Positions 3,007 through 13,485 of a stretch of 22,358 nucleotides of DNA are shown here, piece by piece. Position 1 is the stretch's first letter; every line of letters begins with the position of its first letter. The stretch spans positions 1 to 22,358 of IMG/VR virus record IMGVR_UViG_3300002231_000534. The stretch is one strand, 5' to 3'. The position numbers were made by a program, and so were the translations under genes. The notes below the pieces were generated by a model. That model saw only the letters and a program-made list of their open reading frames with translations. It was not told the DNA's origin and ran no database searches. The DNA comes from a virus.

Positions 3007-4643
3007 TCGATAAAATAAAATCCCTTTTCAGTAAGGGTACCCCCACCATCAGCGTGGATCAATTACCCGTAGCGGGTGGACCTTTGTCACCCAACCGCGC
3101 TCAGTATTTTGACGGGGATAAATTCCCCGGCGGGTTTGGTGAGACCAAACTGTTTACCGCTGATTATTGGACACTACGCGCAAGATCGGCGCAACTTTTC
3201 AAAGAAAACTTGTACGCCCGTGGTGTACTACGGCGACTTATCACAAATGAGATAAACACAGGGCTCACCCTGGAGGCTGCCCCCGAGAGTGGAATACTAG
3301 GGATTGATGAGGACACCCTGGAGGATTGGGCCAACGATGTGGAGGACCGTCACAACATATGGGCAATGAATGCTCAGATGGTAGACTACAAAGAGAAACA
3401 TAATTTTTACCAGCTCCAGGCCATAGCCAAAAATGAGGCGCGGGTGGAGGGTGACTTGTTGGTGATCCTACATCAGGACCGGGTAACCGCGCTACCCAAA
3501 ATTGAACTTGTCTCAGGTGGTCTTGTACAGACACCAATCGGCGGGGGGAACGCTAAAAAGGGTAATAAAATTCTACACGGTGTAGAAATTGATGCACGCG
3601 GGAGGCACGTTGCTTTCCACATCCTCCAGGAGGATGGAACATATAAACGCGTTGTTGCGTATGGTGAAAGGAGTAAAAGGCGCATTGCATGGTTGTACTA
3701 CGGTAGCGATAAACGAAAAGATGACGTACGCGGTGAACCATTTCTTGCCCTTTTTCTCCAGTCACTTAAAGAGATAGACCGGTATCGGGACAGCGTACAG
3801 CGTAAAGCAGTGATTAACTCAATGCTCGCCATGTACATCAAGAAAACTCAAGACAAAATGGGTACCCTACCTGTAACGGGTAGCGCAGTTAAAAAAATAG
3901 ATGGAGCTGTCACCGATACCGACGGCACCAACCGTACATACAATCTCAATGGTAATATTCCGGGTGTTGTTTATGAGGAACTGCAGCAAGGTGAGGAACC
4001 TGTGGGCTTTATGTCCCATGGAACGGATGAGAAATTTTCCGAGTTTGAAAATGCCATTGTTTCTACATTTGCATGGGCGTGCGAGATCCCTCCCAACATA
4101 GTAAAACTGGCCTTTAGTCATAATTATTCAGCATCACAGGGTGAGATAAATGAGTTTAGGATGTATCTAAACCGGGATAGCTCTATTTTTGGGGCTGACT
4201 TCAACCAACCTATTTACCAAGAATGGTTACTTAGTGAGGTGTTACAAAGGCGCATTGATGCCCCTGGACTACTCCAGGCGTGGAGAAATCCTCTTGAATA
4301 TGCCACTTTTGGCGCTTGGTTGGTCTCGGATTGGAGCGGTCAAGTAAAACCATCCACCGACACCAAGAAACAAGCCCAGGGTTATGAGTTGATGACTGAC
4401 AAAGGGTGGATCACCCATGGGCGTACCTCTAAAGAGATATCTGGTACAAAATTTACCAAAAACGTCAAGAAACTGAAGAAAGAAAACGAACAGCTTGTAG
4501 AGGCGTTGCGCCCTCTTGCTGAGTTTAAAGCTGAGTTTAATGAGTCACAGGATGACGGTGCCGGTGATGGTGATTTAGAGGAAACCGTAAACAACATTTT
4601 AGATACCCGATTGGAGGAAACCAACAATGTGGTGGCTACTTGA
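2997..4643 (+). CDS. Portal protein, lambda gpB family
   Basis: This 548-residue protein forms the dodecameric ring at the special vertex through which DNA enters and to which the tail attaches. Family features appear in order: a helical start with RSAQLFKENLYARGVLRRLI (about residues 60-80), NEINTGLTLEA, EARVEGDLLVILHQD, and the C-terminal block ASQGEINEFRMYLNRDSS followed by QPIYQEWLLSEVL and WRNPLEYATF. The last 80 residues include a lysine/glutamate-rich coiled-coil-like segment (about 480-520) and an acidic tail (DDGAGDGDLEE). The length fits lambda gpB (533). The gene overlaps both neighbours, so it is likely coupled to them. Confidence 0.95.
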   Translation: MLVIDKIKSLFSKGTPTISVDQLPVAGGPLSPNRAQYFDGDKFPGGFGETKLFTADYWTLRARSAQLFKENLYARGVLRRLITNEINTGLTLEAAPESGILGIDEDTLEDWANDVEDRHNIWAMNAQMVDYKEKHNFYQLQAIAKNEARVEGDLLVILHQDRVTALPKIELVSGGLVQTPIGGGNAKKGNKILHGVEIDARGRHVAFHILQEDGTYKRVVAYGERSKRRIAWLYYGSDKRKDDVRGEPFLALFLQSLKEIDRYRDSVQRKAVINSMLAMYIKKTQDKMGTLPVTGSAVKKIDGAVTDTDGTNRTYNLNGNIPGVVYEELQQGEEPVGFMSHGTDEKFSEFENAIVSTFAWACEIPPNIVKLAFSHNYSASQGEINEFRMYLNRDSSIFGADFNQPIYQEWLLSEVLQRRIDAPGLLQAWRNPLEYATFGAWLVSDWSGQVKPSTDTKKQAQGYELMTDKGWITHGRTSKEISGTKFTKNVKKLKKENEQLVEALRPLAEFKAEFNESQDDGAGDGDLEETVNNILDTRLEETNNVVAT

Positions 4644-8959: not shown

Positions 8960-10459
8960 ATGGCTGTATCTGATGCTGTTGACATAAGCGCTGTAGCGCG
9001 GGTTGTTGGTATAAAAACACAATTCCGTGATTTACGCGGTGGAAATATACTTTTCCTTCCTCAGCGGGTGGCTATAGTTGGGCAGGGATCAACCGCCGCG
9101 ACTTACGCAACCACTAAAAAACAGGTGTTCTCAGCTTCCGAGGTTGGGTCACTTTATGGTTTTGGTTCACCCCTCCACCTGGCAGCACAACAGATACTAC
9201 CCGTTAACGGTGATGGTGTTGGAACTATCCCTGTAACTGTCTACCCTCTTGAAGATGCCGGTACCGGTGTTGCTTCTGCCGGTGATATCACCCCAAGTGG
9301 TTCTCAAACCGAGGCGGCAAGCTACATTGTACGCATCAACAATATTGACTCTGAGTCATTTGTAATCAGCGTTGGTGATAGTGTGGCCGATATCGTCACA
9401 GCCATGACCACAGCTATCAATGCCAACGTCAATATGCCCGTCATTGCAACTGATAGCACCACAACTTGTGACATTGCGTCGAAATGGAAAGGCACAAGCG
9501 CAAATGATATTGAAGTTGAAGTAGTTGAGAGTGCTTCTGCTGGTACCACTTTTGCTATTACTCAACCTGTTGGTGGGTTGGTCAATCCTGACGTACAAGA
9601 CGCCCTGGATCAAGTTGGTGACGTGTGGGAAACCATGATGTTGAATTGCATGGACATTGCAGATACCACCAGCCTTGACGCGTATTCCACCTTTGGTGAG
9701 GGTCGCTGGGGTAGCCTGACACATAAACCTTTGGTTGTGTTCACTGGTAACAACATTGCAGACGTTACCGCCGCCTCAGCTGTGGCTGATGGTCGCAAGA
9801 CTGACCGCACCAACGCTCAATTGGTTGCACCTGGTTCAGCAAACCTACCTTGTGTTATTGCCGCCCGTCAATTGGCTCGTATAGCCTCCCTGGCCAACAA
9901 CAACCCACCCCATGATTATGGTTCCCAGGACATCTCCAGTATCACACCCGGTACTGATGCTGAACAGTGGAACTACACCCAACGTGACGCCGCTGTAAAA
10001 CGCGGTAGTTCAACCGTTGAGGTAAAAGACGGTGTTCTCAATATCAGTGATGTTGTGACCTTCTATCACCCCACTGACGAGGCTGTACCGGCTTACCGTT
10101 ACGTTGTGGATATTGTCAAACTGCAAAACATCATCTTCAACACGTCGTTGATCTTCAATGACAGTAGTTGGGCGGGTGCTCCTTTGATCCCTGATGATCA
10201 GGCAACCGTAAACCCTGATGCAAAGCAACCAAAAATGGCTAAGGCTGAGATGGCTGCATTACTTGACTCTCTCGGGTTGAATGCAATAATCAGCGATCCA
10301 AAAATAGCAAAAACAACCATTATCGCTGAGATATCTGATCAAAATCCAAAACGCCTTGATATAGCTGTAACTATCCAGGTTTCTGGAAACACCAACATAA
10401 TCAGCATTGACCTAAACTGGGGTTTCTTCTTCGGTACTCCTTCAATCGTAAACGCATAA
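8960..10459 (+). CDS. Contractile tail sheath protein (Mu gpL family)
   Basis: This 499-residue protein polymerises around the tail tube and contracts during injection. The order of segments follows Mu-type sheath: an N-terminal linker and domain with GGNILFLPQRVAIVGQGS, SEVGSLYGFGSPLHLAAQQI, an internal beta-rich domain of about residues 105-205 (starting GDITPSGSQTEAASY), then the conserved core with MMLNCMDIADTTSL, GRKTDRTNAQLVAPGSANLP, DAAVKRGSSTVEVKDGVLNI, VVTFYHPTDE and a C-terminal strand with NTNIISIDLNWGFFFG. AAGGTG at 8948-8953 gives a good SD, with a 6-nt spacer. It marks the phage as a myovirus. Confidence 0.93.
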   Translation: MAVSDAVDISAVARVVGIKTQFRDLRGGNILFLPQRVAIVGQGSTAATYATTKKQVFSASEVGSLYGFGSPLHLAAQQILPVNGDGVGTIPVTVYPLEDAGTGVASAGDITPSGSQTEAASYIVRINNIDSESFVISVGDSVADIVTAMTTAINANVNMPVIATDSTTTCDIASKWKGTSANDIEVEVVESASAGTTFAITQPVGGLVNPDVQDALDQVGDVWETMMLNCMDIADTTSLDAYSTFGEGRWGSLTHKPLVVFTGNNIADVTAASAVADGRKTDRTNAQLVAPGSANLPCVIAARQLARIASLANNNPPHDYGSQDISSITPGTDAEQWNYTQRDAAVKRGSSTVEVKDGVLNISDVVTFYHPTDEAVPAYRYVVDIVKLQNIIFNTSLIFNDSSWAGAPLIPDDQATVNPDAKQPKMAKAEMAALLDSLGLNAIISDPKIAKTTIIAEISDQNPKRLDIAVTIQVSGNTNIISIDLNWGFFFGTPSIVNA

Positions 10460-10471
10460 TAGAGGTATATC

Positions 10472-10849
10472 ATGACTGGTGGATCTATAGAATCAATTTC
10501 TCTGAGTGGTCGTCTCTTCGCCGTTGCTGCTGATGCCGACGGTGAGAGAAACCTTGGCGGGTTTCAAAATGAGGTGCAGATGAATGGTGACGGGAATGCC
10601 CGTCTCATTAAAACTCGCATCCCTGCAAGGCTATCGGGTATAAGTATCTCAATTGATGACACTCGCGGTGATCAAGAGTACGTACAAAACCTGGCAAATG
10701 GTAAAACATTTTTCCCTGTTTCAATTACTTTCGCTTCCGGCGAAGTGTATCAGGGCACGTTGCAATTGACTGATGAAAGCAACACCAGTACTCAAAGTAC
10801 CACCATGGCAATATCTCTCATGGGACCTGGTGAACTGACCAAACAATAA
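10472..10849 (+). CDS. Tail tube protein (Mu gpM family)
   Basis: This 125-residue protein forms the inner tube through which DNA passes. It matches the short Mu gpM-type tube family, with an N-terminal SIESISLSGRLFAVAADADG, then FQNEVQMNGDGNARLI and a beta-rich C-terminal half containing TFASGEVYQGTLQLTDE and a closing MAISLMGPGEL strand. It follows the sheath by 12 nt with AGAGG as SD, the usual sheath-tube pairing. Both should be highly expressed; the attenuator-like leader right after this gene may lower translation of the genes that follow. Confidence 0.9.
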   Translation: MTGGSIESISLSGRLFAVAADADGERNLGGFQNEVQMNGDGNARLIKTRIPARLSGISISIDDTRGDQEYVQNLANGKTFFPVSITFASGEVYQGTLQLTDESNTSTQSTTMAISLMGPGELTKQ

Positions 10850-10935
10850 AAAACAGAGGGTTAATCATGTCATGGGGGGTGTACCCTCGCCCGTTGCCTT
10901 GCGGCCCATGACACCACATTTTAGAGGGTAACAAT
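10850..10935 (+). promoter_or_regulatory. Attenuator-like leader between tube and chaperone genes
   Basis: This 86-nt gap, the longest between genes here, holds several overlapping base-pairing options. A perfect 9-bp inverted repeat (TGTCATGGG at 10868-10876, CCCATGACA at 10905-10913) encloses TACCCTC at 10882-10888, which is exactly complementary to GAGGGTA at 10924-10930, the SD of the chaperone gene. ACCCTC can also pair with the SD of the mini-ORF at 10856-10861. GGTGT (10878-10882) could pair with ACACC (10911-10915). There is no U-run, so it is not a standard terminator. Regulation by translation of the mini-ORF is an inference. Confidence 0.5.
10867..10911 (+). CDS. Possible 14-residue leader peptide
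   Basis: ATG 10867 is preceded by GAGGG (10856-10860) with a 6-nt spacer and opens a 14-codon frame, MSWGVYPRPLPCGP, ending in TGA at 10909-10911. It covers the whole inverted repeat and the anti-SD element TACCCTC. The peptide has four prolines and ends Gly-Pro before the stop, a context linked to slow termination in known arrest peptides (for example the terminal Pro of TnaC). A ribosome on this frame would disrupt pairing to the chaperone SD. It could also be a chance frame. Confidence 0.4.
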   Translation: MSWGVYPRPLPCGP

Positions 10936-11352
10936 ATGGCAAAGCATGAAATACGGGTGGCTACTGAAGTCGCTGAACAGGAGTTTGAGAGGTTTCTGGA
11001 GTCGATGGATATTCTTATCGATCCAACAAAGCTTGACGCTGAGGACCTTACAGCATTCAACAAGCAAAAACAGAAGATAGTGTGGTCGATTGAGCGCGGT
11101 TATCTGATCATAAATGAGGAAGGTGAACCCGTATACACACCATGGAAAACCGAGAATATTGATGCAATCACATTTCATGAACGTACAGGCGCCTCACTTA
11201 TGGCCATTGATGGGAAGAAAAAGGGTCACGACGTGGCGAAGACTTATGCAATGATGGCTGATCTTACCGGTACTCACCCTTCAGTTTTCGCAAAGTTGCG
11301 GGGGATGGATATCAAGGTGTGTGAAAGTCTGTTCAACCTTTTAATGGACTAG
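10936..11352 (+). CDS. Tail assembly chaperone, upstream (G-like) frame
   Basis: This 138-residue protein is the shorter product of the two-frame chaperone gene found before tape measure genes in most long-tailed phages; it coats the tape measure while the tube assembles. It is mainly helical and charged: EVAEQEFERFLESMDILIDP, LTAFNKQKQKIVWSIERG, and a C-terminal part with HDVAKTYAMMADLTGTHPSVFAKLRGMD, which fits the Mu gp41-type chaperone family. SD GAGGG at 10924-10928 lies 7 nt before the start. It ends at TAG 11350-11352, where a -1 shift would extend it to about 213 residues. Confidence 0.85.
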   Translation: MAKHEIRVATEVAEQEFERFLESMDILIDPTKLDAEDLTAFNKQKQKIVWSIERGYLIINEEGEPVYTPWKTENIDAITFHERTGASLMAIDGKKKGHDVAKTYAMMADLTGTHPSVFAKLRGMDIKVCESLFNLLMD

Positions 11353-11375
11353 TCCGGGCGTCTCTTGTGAGGCGC
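11337..11375 (+). promoter_or_regulatory. Candidate programmed -1 frameshift signal
   Basis: The downstream frame is -1 to the chaperone and has a stop at 11322-11324, so a shift must occur between 11325 and 11352. The best site is C CTT TTA (11337-11343), an imperfect slippery heptamer. Downstream lies the palindrome GGACTAGTCC (11346-11355), containing the zero-frame stop, followed by a 7-bp hairpin (11358-11364 with 11369-11375, one G-U pair, TTGT loop) that could pause ribosomes. The position is standard for this gene pair; the heptamer is not canonical, so the exact slip site is uncertain. Confidence 0.55.
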
Positions 11376-11576
11376 GGTGTAGATGAACATTTACCGGGTG
11401 ATAACAATACTTTTTTAAATGTGTATGGTGAGATGTTCATTCAAATTTGTAGAGAATACAACACTTTGCCTGACCCCCAGGACTATAAAAGCGCGAGAGA
11501 TCCTATTTTTTTACAATGGGATCAGGAAAGAACTACAGATCACCAGCGGCAAGAGTTGAAATGTTGGGTTTTATAG
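11343..11576 (+). CDS. Tail assembly chaperone, downstream (T-like) extension reached by -1 frameshift
   Basis: This frame continues the chaperone as NGLVRASLVRRGVDEHLPG and ends CWVL at TAG 11574-11576, giving a 77-residue extension and a fusion of about 213 residues. In lambda the equivalent GT product carries the domain that recruits tube subunits to the tape measure. The only independent start codon, GTG 11367, has no SD and lies in the loop of a hairpin, so frameshifting is the better explanation. The gene ends 12 nt before the tape measure start. Confidence 0.75.
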   Translation, partial: NGLVRASLVRRGVDEHLPGDNNTFLNVYGEMFIQICREYNTLPDPQDYKSARDPIFLQWDQERTTDHQRQELKCWVL

Positions 11577-11588
11577 TACACTCATGTA

Positions 11589-11834
11589 ATGGCTGGTAGA
11601 TTTAGTGTAGAGGCGGTGTTTAAGGCGGTTGATCGTATCACCGCCCCTGTATCTCGCATGCAATCCCGTATGGGTAAATTTACCCGCGCTACGCAATCAG
11701 GTTTGCGTAACATGGACCGCTCAGTCACCCGATTGAACAGTGGTCTACAAAAGTATGGCAATGACTGGTGTTGCTCTAGGTACCGCTTTTGGCGCAGGTT
11801 TGGCAAATGTTGTCTCAACAGGTGCTACTTTTGA
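11589..11834 (+). CDS. Tape measure protein, N-terminal piece (frame broken)
   Basis: This frame encodes the start of the tape measure protein: MAGRFSVEAVFKAVDRITAP followed by a basic helical segment with RMGKFTRATQSGLRNMDR, typical of Mu-type tape measures. After about residue 54 (Gln codon at 11748-11750) it turns into a cysteine- and tryptophan-rich tail (YGNDWCCSRYRFWRR) unlike any protein domain and ends at 11834. The proper continuation is one base over, in the frame of the next entry. Removing one A from AAAA at 11749-11752 joins them into a protein of about 631 residues. There is no clear SD; ATG 11589 overlaps a two-codon ATG-TAA and may rely on coupling. Confidence 0.75.
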   Translation: MAGRFSVEAVFKAVDRITAPVSRMQSRMGKFTRATQSGLRNMDRSVTRLNSGLQKYGNDWCCSRYRFWRRFGKCCLNRCYF

Positions 11835-13485
11835 ACAAACTATGGTTAACGCTGCTGCAAAATTTGACATTGTAAGTCAAAGTCAAAAAGAGTTTATAGC
11901 ACTTAGTAAAGCCGCTCAAGAACAGGGTGCGCGTACTGAGTTTACAGCAACACAAGCCGCTGAGGCTCTACAATTTCTAGGTCTCGCGGGGTTTGAGGTT
12001 AATGAGGCTATCGCCGCTTTACCTGGTGTGATTGATCTTGCCACAGTGGCACAGACTGAACTTGCACAGGCAACCGATATCGCAACGGATACCATGGGTA
12101 TCTTTGGGTTAAATGTTGGCACAGCGGAAGAGAAAGCAAAAAACCTCGTTAAAGTTAGTGATTTACTAGCCAAAACCAGTACCTCAGCAAATACCAGCAT
12201 GGAACAAATGTTTGAGGCACTCAAGCAAGGTGGGCCAGTTGCCAAGGCTGCCGGGGTGTCAATGCTCGATACAAGTGTGATACTTGGTGTTTTGGCTAAT
12301 GCTGGAATCAAAGGTAGTGACGCCGGCACCGGATTAAAACGTGTGATTTTAGGTCTCGCAGCACCCACACCAAAGGCCACAGCCGCTCTTAAAAAGCTTG
12401 GTGTTACAACCACGGAAGTTACCAAAACATCCAAGGCGTTGACTGGGGCACTGGAAGAGGCTGGAATACGTACAACCATGATGGAAAAAGGCGTCAAAAA
12501 ATTGCGCGGACCACTCGCAATCATGGAGGATTTACAGACCGCAGTGAGCAAACTCCAACCCGCTGACAGACCAAAATTCCTTGACGCTATTTTCGGGAAA
12601 ATTGGTATAGCCTCATCTGTAAACCTGATTGATAATGCAGGTAAAAGCATAGATGAACTTAAGGGTAAAATAGCGGACTACGCTGGTACTGTTTCTAAGT
12701 TGGCAGATTTTCAACGTAAGACACTGATAGGTAATTGGAATGCCTTGAACTCAATCATTGAGAGTGTAAAAATAAGAGCTACTGAATTAAGTAAGGGCGG
12801 TATATCAGTACTCATAAATAAAATACGACAATGGATCAAAGTCAATGATGAATGGTTGGCACAGGGGGTTGGTGATACACTCGTTTTCATTACCAAGAAC
12901 ATCAGAACTATAATTTCAGTTATCGCCGGTACCGGTGGACTCATAGTTGCTCTCACAACGCTGAGTTTTGCATTAAAAGCGGTTGGATTTGTGGTCACAC
13001 TTTTAAATGCTCTAATGGCGGCCAACCCCGTGGTGTTGATGACTATGGCGTTTCTGGCTCTTGCTTCTGCAGCTGTATGGGTTGCTTTTAACATGGATAA
13101 AGTTGAAGCATCATTACGCCCATTGTTGGAGCTTATTACCGATATTGTTGAAAAATTTAAAGAGTTAATGACCCTACAGTCATTTACAAAACCTGTAAGT
13201 CAAGGTGCTGCATCCTATCAGGCTGCACTGACTGGTTTTGGTGGTGGAATGCCTCGCGCAACACAACCCGCCGGGGTAAATGCTCTTGGAACTGGTACAT
13301 TAAATAGCGTTTTTGGTGCAGGTGGTACGAATAGCACACCGTCACCAAGCTCAATCAGTCAAGGGCGTGCCGATAACACCGCAAACATCAGCGGTAAAAT
13401 TGAGGTTGAAGCGAAACCAGGCACAAGCGCAGAAATCACCGGTCAAAATCCTTCTCTCATAATGAGCCCATCAGGAGATTTTTAA
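11740..13485 (+). CDS. Tape measure protein, main piece
   Basis: This long frame carries the tape measure core, which sets tail length and occupies the tube lumen before injection. It reads from about 11752 as SMAMTGVALGTAFGAGLANV and continues with GATFEQTMVNAAAKFDIVS, EFTATQAAEALQFLGLAGFEV, ALPGVIDLATVAQTE and ANTSMEQMFEALKQGGPVAKAAG, the hallmark of the phage-minor-tail core family. Two or three hydrophobic segments lie between about residues 385 and 450. The C-terminus is glycine/serine-rich. By the known rule of about 0.15 nm per residue, the joined 631-residue protein would give a tail near 95 nm. No SD precedes GTG 11740 or ATG 11755, so this is not a natural start. Confidence 0.88.
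   Translation: MVYKSMAMTGVALGTAFGAGLANVVSTGATFEQTMVNAAAKFDIVSQSQKEFIALSKAAQEQGARTEFTATQAAEALQFLGLAGFEVNEAIAALPGVIDLATVAQTELAQATDIATDTMGIFGLNVGTAEEKAKNLVKVSDLLAKTSTSANTSMEQMFEALKQGGPVAKAAGVSMLDTSVILGVLANAGIKGSDAGTGLKRVILGLAAPTPKATAALKKLGVTTTEVTKTSKALTGALEEAGIRTTMMEKGVKKLRGPLAIMEDLQTAVSKLQPADRPKFLDAIFGKIGIASSVNLIDNAGKSIDELKGKIADYAGTVSKLADFQRKTLIGNWNALNSIIESVKIRATELSKGGISVLINKIRQWIKVNDEWLAQGVGDTLVFITKNIRTIISVIAGTGGLIVALTTLSFALKAVGFVVTLLNALMAANPVVLMTMAFLALASAAVWVAFNMDKVEASLRPLLELITDIVEKFKELMTLQSFTKPVSQGAASYQAALTGFGGGMPRATQPAGVNALGTGTLNSVFGAGGTNSTPSPSSISQGRADNTANISGKIEVEAKPGTSAEITGQNPSLIMSPSGDF

Follow-up and report, generated by a model that had tools for sequence, protein, structure and literature searches.

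The question raised by this locus is what the short gap between a phage tail tube gene and the following tail assembly chaperone gene does, and whether it controls translation of the chaperone. The window, that is the whole stretch of DNA that was analysed, is a virus record of 22.4 kb. Its late operon is of the contractile-tail type, and genes for terminase gpA, portal, protease, capsid, sheath, tube, chaperone, tape measure and baseplate were recognized in it. The chaperone belongs to the P2 E / Mu gp41 type; PF10109 (Phage_TAC_7) was matched in 11 of 20 family members, with the window's own protein staying under the cut-off (18.9 bits vs 25). An earlier note on this DNA had proposed an attenuator in the gap, in which translation of a mini-ORF, or stalling at its Gly-Pro end, would open a chaperone Shine-Dalgarno sequence (SD) hidden by the complementary TACCCTC. 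The coordinates that it gave for the mini-ORF, TACCCTC, GAGGGTA, the inverted repeat and the SD of the mini-ORF were all correct. Based on comparison with relatives, however, we read the gap as holding a conserved RNA fold, with a stem (P1), a hairpin (P3), usually a second hairpin (P2) and a predicted pseudoknot to the SD (Table 1), and not a leader peptide.

Table 1. Position of the leader elements and adjoining genes in the window, with the basis of each assignment.
Feature	Coordinates	Strand	Basis or remark
Sheath gene	8960-10459		phrog_165
Tail tube gene, adjoins the leader on its 5' side	10472-10849	+	phrog_4699 tail tube, E 5e-34
a, SD-like copy GAGGGT upstream of P1	10856-10861	+	Complementary to P3 loop 10883-10888 (ACCCTC, 6 bp); core GGG 91-98% conserved
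Mini-ORF MSWGVYPRPLPCGP	10867-10911	+	Not conserved; judged a by-product of the RNA structure
P1 stem, 5' strand TGTCATGGG	10868-10876	+	Covariation with 3' strand
P3 hairpin stem, 5' strand GGG	10877-10879	+	GGG/CCC covariation; register ambiguous by one (six-G run)
a', anti-SD TACCCTC, apical loop of P3	10882-10888	+	Complement of c; covariation with c
P3 hairpin stem, 3' strand CCC	10890-10892	+	Covariation with 5' strand
P2 hairpin position	10894-10904	+	Pairing in relatives; placed by eye in the window
P1 stem, 3' strand CCCATGACA	10905-10913	+	Pairs with TGTCATGGG
Linker from P1 to SD	10914-10923	+	7-18 nt among relatives
c, chaperone SD GAGGGTA, predicted to be sequestered by a'	10924-10930	+	Covariation with a'
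Tail assembly chaperone gene, the putative regulated gene	10936-11352	+	phrog_4648, E 3e-28; phrog_166 tail protein

The perfect 9-bp inverted repeat and the anti-SD are together not due to chance. Among 20,000 leaders obtained by dinucleotide shuffling, with the SD left in place, 252 had a 9-bp inverted repeat and 66 a 7-base complement of the SD, and none had the two jointly. An ATG preceded by an SD-like 4-mer occurred in 26% of the shuffles, so that the mini-ORF alone is unremarkable. Folding of the window leader with RNAfold, which had been put forward as a check, gave no signal, as the minimum free energy of -23.9 kcal/mol was no better than that of shuffles (z +0.91); ordinary RNAfold would mislead here because the key interaction is a pseudoknot. 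A DNA similarity search of the region and of the leader in phages gave no useful match.

Relatives were collected by scans with the chaperone and tube proteins, which yielded 185 loci having both genes and 112 distinct gaps. The loci came from isolated phages (Shewanella, Vibrio, Aeromonas, Acinetobacter, Oceanospirillum and Pseudoalteromonas) and from IMG/VR contigs, and the element was found in about 80 distinct leaders, in phages of these genera and in many environmental contigs. Most distinct gaps of about 76-130 nt followed one layout, which from 5' to 3' consists of the SD-like copy a, the 5' strand of P1, the anti-SD a' inside P1, usually P2, the 3' strand of P1, a linker, and c, the chaperone SD, located 4-10 nt ahead of the chaperone ATG in relatives. 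The triplets of a, a' and c were GAGGGT / TACCCTC / GAGGGTA in the window, ATAGGGC / GCCCTAT / ATAGGGC in L013, AAGGGCC / GGCCCTT / AAGGGCC in L069 and CAGG / GTCCTG / CAGGAC in L016. P2 was well formed in most relatives and weak in the window, with two G-C and two G-U pairs. Element a was weak or absent in several lineages, and the Vibrio 1.x phages were without it. Several Vibrio phage records place the chaperone start too far downstream, as seen around position 4035 of L211, where the recorded start is at 4068 and an SD and an ATG lie behind the element at 4024-4037.

The fold was assessed mainly in a MAFFT alignment (A3) of 58 distinct leaders that was fitted to no structure. P1 was paired in 97.8% of cells, with two-sided compensatory changes in all seven pairs, and the inverted repeat around TACCCTC, as described in the earlier note, is thus a real and strongly covarying stem. 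The claim that TACCCTC can act as an anti-SD hiding the chaperone SD was likewise supported, since a' coevolves with c: the a':c pseudoknot was paired in 94.5% of cells, two-sided changes were seen in six of its seven pairs, and 29 cells were two-sided compared to 4.1 in shuffles. Pairing of TACCCTC with its proposed second partner, the SD of the mini-ORF (here a), was also conserved in most relatives (86.3% of cells; 15 two-sided cells vs 4.6 in shuffles). P3 was paired in 93.1% of cells and P2 in 84%, or 95% on the model-fitted alignment. The GGG/CCC of P3 swaps to GGC/GCC, GGA/UCC, GGU/ACC and GUG/CAC among relatives, and P3 reaches 6 bp in VP16-type phages, the sequences of which were read by eye. 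Taken alone, however, P3 carries less weight, since three G-rich pairs often pair in slid controls too.

No shuffle scored as high in covariation, and when the partners were displaced by 1-3 columns, whole-structure pairing fell to about 35-55% and the signal was lost. Among 25 disjoint nearest pairs of leaders, 50 of the 51 differences in P1 left the pair intact and one broke it, and a:a' was broken more often than a':c between these close relatives. The model-fitted alignment of 78 leaders agreed with 97.1% pairing for P1, but an alignment made in this way is biased towards the structure. Independently, P1 was also proposed by the RNAalifold consensus. G-U pairs were present in 39 of the 397 P1 cells, which argues for an RNA structure and against a DNA palindrome. 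The a' and c of each phage matched each other better than in any of 2000 permutations. Unpaired columns were at most 82% conserved. According to duplex estimates, a' pairs with c at a mean of -12.1 kcal/mol and with a at a mean of -10.2 kcal/mol, a':c being stronger in 48 of the 58 leaders. As the Vibrio group keeps the element without a, the comparison indicates that a':c is the core pairing and a an addition.

To place the window independently, a hold-out covariance model (R3) was built from 34 core leaders with the window left out. R3 matched the window at 10843-10938 with 32.6 bits (E 4.3e-5), and it also matched many divergent leaders outside the training set at the same genomic place. 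No second clear copy was found in the five phage records searched, four of them complete (SppYZU01, AeroV_348, PD0307 and Scuro) and one partial (VP16T, which was below the model threshold and the element of which was read directly from the sequence). Additionally, a protein-independent pattern scan of 2.9 million viral contigs returned 33 stretches, of which 31 lay directly before the chaperone and the other two were without the rest of the element. In 398 genomes from the phylum of the Shimia MAG, only that MAG's own copy and one borderline match (E 0.009) were detected.

Judged by its position in relatives, the element is bound to the chaperone and not to the tube. It stays with the chaperone where an inserted gene separates the two genes (L015, L031) and where a terminator with promoter-like sequence intervenes (L017, L150, L179). 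In the Vibrio loci L187, L189 and L211-L214, more than 1 kb of opposite-strand genes and the promoter-like TGGTTATACT intervene, and the element, with a missing, is found beside the chaperone. In L028 it precedes an ORF inserted between tube and chaperone. Extra genes, terminators and promoters have been inserted repeatedly at the tube-chaperone junction (L015, L031, L150, L187, L189, L211-L214).

About a quarter of the distinct relatives were without the element, and it is thus not essential. The earlier note had named relatives that lack both the mini-ORF and the complementarity while keeping normal gene order as evidence against its proposal. Such relatives do exist and make up this quarter, but they represent repeated losses of the whole element, which make it optional and do not argue that it is absent from the window. 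On the chaperone tree at least nine gains or losses are needed (17 in the best tree), in a count that scored L037 as element-less although it actually carries the element. The sister phages L141/L135 and L112/L030 are near-identical and differ by removal of the whole element, with the SD left. The chaperone SD was stronger in element-less relatives (-8.05 vs -5.06 kcal/mol with the 16S tail, p 7e-6, by a statistic that ignores kinship). In phage Mu the gap is short, with a direct ribosome-binding site (SD), and the element is missing. In L006, which is also without the element, a tRNA-Met gene lies in the tube-chaperone gap (2889-2963), and in the element-less gap of L099 (about 1413-1488) an unrelated 14-bp hairpin, AGCGAGCGAGAGGG / CCCTCTCGCTCGCT, immediately precedes the chaperone ATG and may limit initiation by a different route.

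From this pattern of coevolution, the fold is quite probably a cis-acting pseudoknot RNA that limits initiation of chaperone translation by hiding the SD. P1 would close a junction containing P3 and usually P2, and the anti-SD in the P3 loop would pair with c, so that the pseudoknot forms and the ribosome-binding site is hidden, which is expected to lower initiation. In members carrying a, the same loop could bind either a, with the SD free, or c, with the SD hidden, but never both; the two pairings share a' and both coevolve with it. The a:a' pairing may form first during transcription, and a':c, about 2 kcal/mol stronger on average by the duplex estimate, would then give a resting state with the SD hidden. 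Taken together, these points suggest that the leader rests closed while an open state competes, and the exchange between a and c would be a switch. Opening may occur by 30S/S1 competition or by refolding, and the purpose would be a low, balanced level of chaperone relative to tube and tape measure. As no unpaired base is highly conserved, a mechanical throttle is favoured over a ligand pocket, and a protein reading the shape of the RNA is possible. The weakness or absence of a in several lineages indicates that the putative two-state switch is not universal among members. A more far-reaching reading, possible but less likely than not, is that the leaders form a new family of RNAs that act without a protein as a two-state translational switch of phage tail operons, in which the anti-SD loop chooses between the SD of the gene and its upstream copy, thereby setting the chaperone dose for tail-length assembly.

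Several other explanations were weighed against this pseudoknot throttle. An erm/tna-type attenuator, in which translation of or stalling on the mini-ORF opens the SD, fits the SD-like sequence that the window mini-ORF has (codons ATG TCA TGG GGG GTG TAC CCT CGC CCG TTG CCT TGC GGC CCA TGA), and it was the logic of the earlier note. However, the mini-ORF was rejected as a coding sequence, as neither start, length nor end was conserved: the ATG is present in 21 of the 58 aligned relatives, about 20 lack any start codon, and where the ATG is present the frames are random in length and end, running from 11 to 165 codons, with stops that range from 50 nt ahead of the chaperone ATG to 420 nt behind it. 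The outermost P1 pair includes the T of the mini-ORF ATG, and in nine relatives T-A has become C-G, which keeps the pair and destroys the start codon, so that selection acts on the pair and not on the codon. Control by such a peptide, with its Gly-Pro stalling, is therefore extremely unlikely. A small-molecule riboswitch is no more credible; SD-hiding pseudoknots are a common expression platform of riboswitches, but here highly conserved unpaired nucleotides and an Rfam match are lacking, and the controlled gene encodes an assembly protein and not a metabolic one. That the fold is an operator, with a phage or host protein (the chaperone, the tube or a ribosomal protein such as S15 or S4) stabilising the SD-hidden state in the way of T4 gp32 or E. 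coli rpsO, is possible, if rather unlikely. Pseudoknot operators have precedents (PMC3014915, PMC10931766), and the element precedes, and stays with, one gene of a stoichiometry-sensitive pathway. On the other hand, no highly conserved unpaired bases mark a binding site, the sequence of P1 is freely swapped by compensation, and the domain matches of the chaperone show no RNA-binding domain.

The position of a, 3-13 nt behind the tube stop in most relatives, would suit a coupling to tube translation, by which a ribosome terminating at the tube stop covers a, frees the loop to close the chaperone SD, and heavy translation of the tube thus lowers the chaperone. We consider this improbable, as the element is kept with 288 nt (L031) or 400 nt (L015) between the tube stop and a, behind the new terminators and promoters of L017, L150 and L179, and even without a in the Vibrio phages in which the chaperone lies more than 1 kb from the tube. 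If a and c bordered a mobile or recombination sequence with no regulatory role, this would account for their being near-identical direct repeats and for near-identical sister phages with and without the whole element. Nevertheless, there is a single site per genome in the records searched, the loop complement tracks the SD of the respective phage, a match that target duplication leaves unexplained, G-U pairs are tolerated, and deletions always leave the SD, all of which makes this explanation very unlikely.

Hiding an SD in a leader RNA is a known kind of control. In riboswitches of the preQ1-I/II and SAM-II type the SD is the 3' strand of a pseudoknot, as predicted for the present element, which differs in that Rfam gives no match, the junction is three-way, a hairpin loop carries the anti-SD and there is no highly conserved unpaired pocket. 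In erm and tna leader-peptide attenuators mutually exclusive pairings hide or free the SD; the element shares such pairings, but not a conserved leader peptide. In E. coli, the alpha mRNA/S4 and rpsO/S15 operators are similar in that the pseudoknot includes the ribosome-binding site and two states control initiation, whereas the secondary structure is another and the gene is unrelated (PMC10931766). The T4 gene 32 leader, perhaps the only viral pseudoknot in translational autoregulation according to a 2010 review (PMC3014915), is also a phage mRNA leader pseudoknot that controls initiation of the next gene and is patchy among relatives. However, the T4 pseudoknot lies 67 nt upstream, nucleates gp32 binding and has no SD pairing, whereas in the present element the loop itself would pair with the SD and has a second, competing copy a. 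The leader described here would thus be a second phage pseudoknot, unrelated to that of T4 gene 32.

For the tail chaperone itself, the control described before is frameshifting only. Chaperone dosage matters for tail assembly; in lambda, assembly depends critically on the molar ratio between the two chaperone products (PMC5009743). Frameshift control of lambda G/GT, P2 E and Mu gp41 concerns the same gene and the same need for balanced expression (PMC5009743), but it sets the ratio of two products at the end of the gene, whereas the element acts before the gene. The benefit of the element is likely to be the chaperone dose, with tube being needed in large excess. In the open-access papers searched, no description of a tail-chaperone leader RNA or pseudoknot was found, and what appears to be new is the family, its place before the chaperone and its design with a duplicated SD. 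The near-identical natural phages with and without the element allow a direct test of its loss.

Known RNA classes and other signals were also searched for. Rfam 15 at gathering thresholds gave no matches for 17 sources, and the window alone had none even at E up to 10. Two canonical members gave chance-level matches only in a permissive search, e.g. Pistol with 12.8 bits vs 34.5 required, and this match shares neither the P1 nor the conserved core of Pistol. A tRNA-like reading (P1 of 7 bp, P2 of 5 bp, then ACCA) was dismissed, as neither the window nor L013 nor L189 has a tRNA according to ARAGORN, and the ACCA is not kept among relatives. An intrinsic terminator or transcription attenuator was rejected as well: the + strand of the window leader was free of terminator-like sites, and several relatives (L016, L019, L168) lack the T run that follows P1.

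Some further observations concern the neighbouring genes. At 11283-11577 of the window the -1 frame is open beyond the chaperone stop and corresponds to the extension frame of relatives, in most of which the shift site is TTTTTTTG; we read it as the frameshift product that is usual for tail chaperones. The start of the tape-measure gene is at 11589 (MAGRFSVEAVFKAVD, like that of relatives), and in the window the gene is found as two stretches, 11589-11834 and 11740-13485. Its reading changes frame at about 11740-11760, an apparent frameshift of the record, by mutation or sequencing error. In OL658619.1 the gene before the sheath (10221-10916) is annotated as 'rubisco long chain, form III-C', and its position suggests a misannotated tail terminator.
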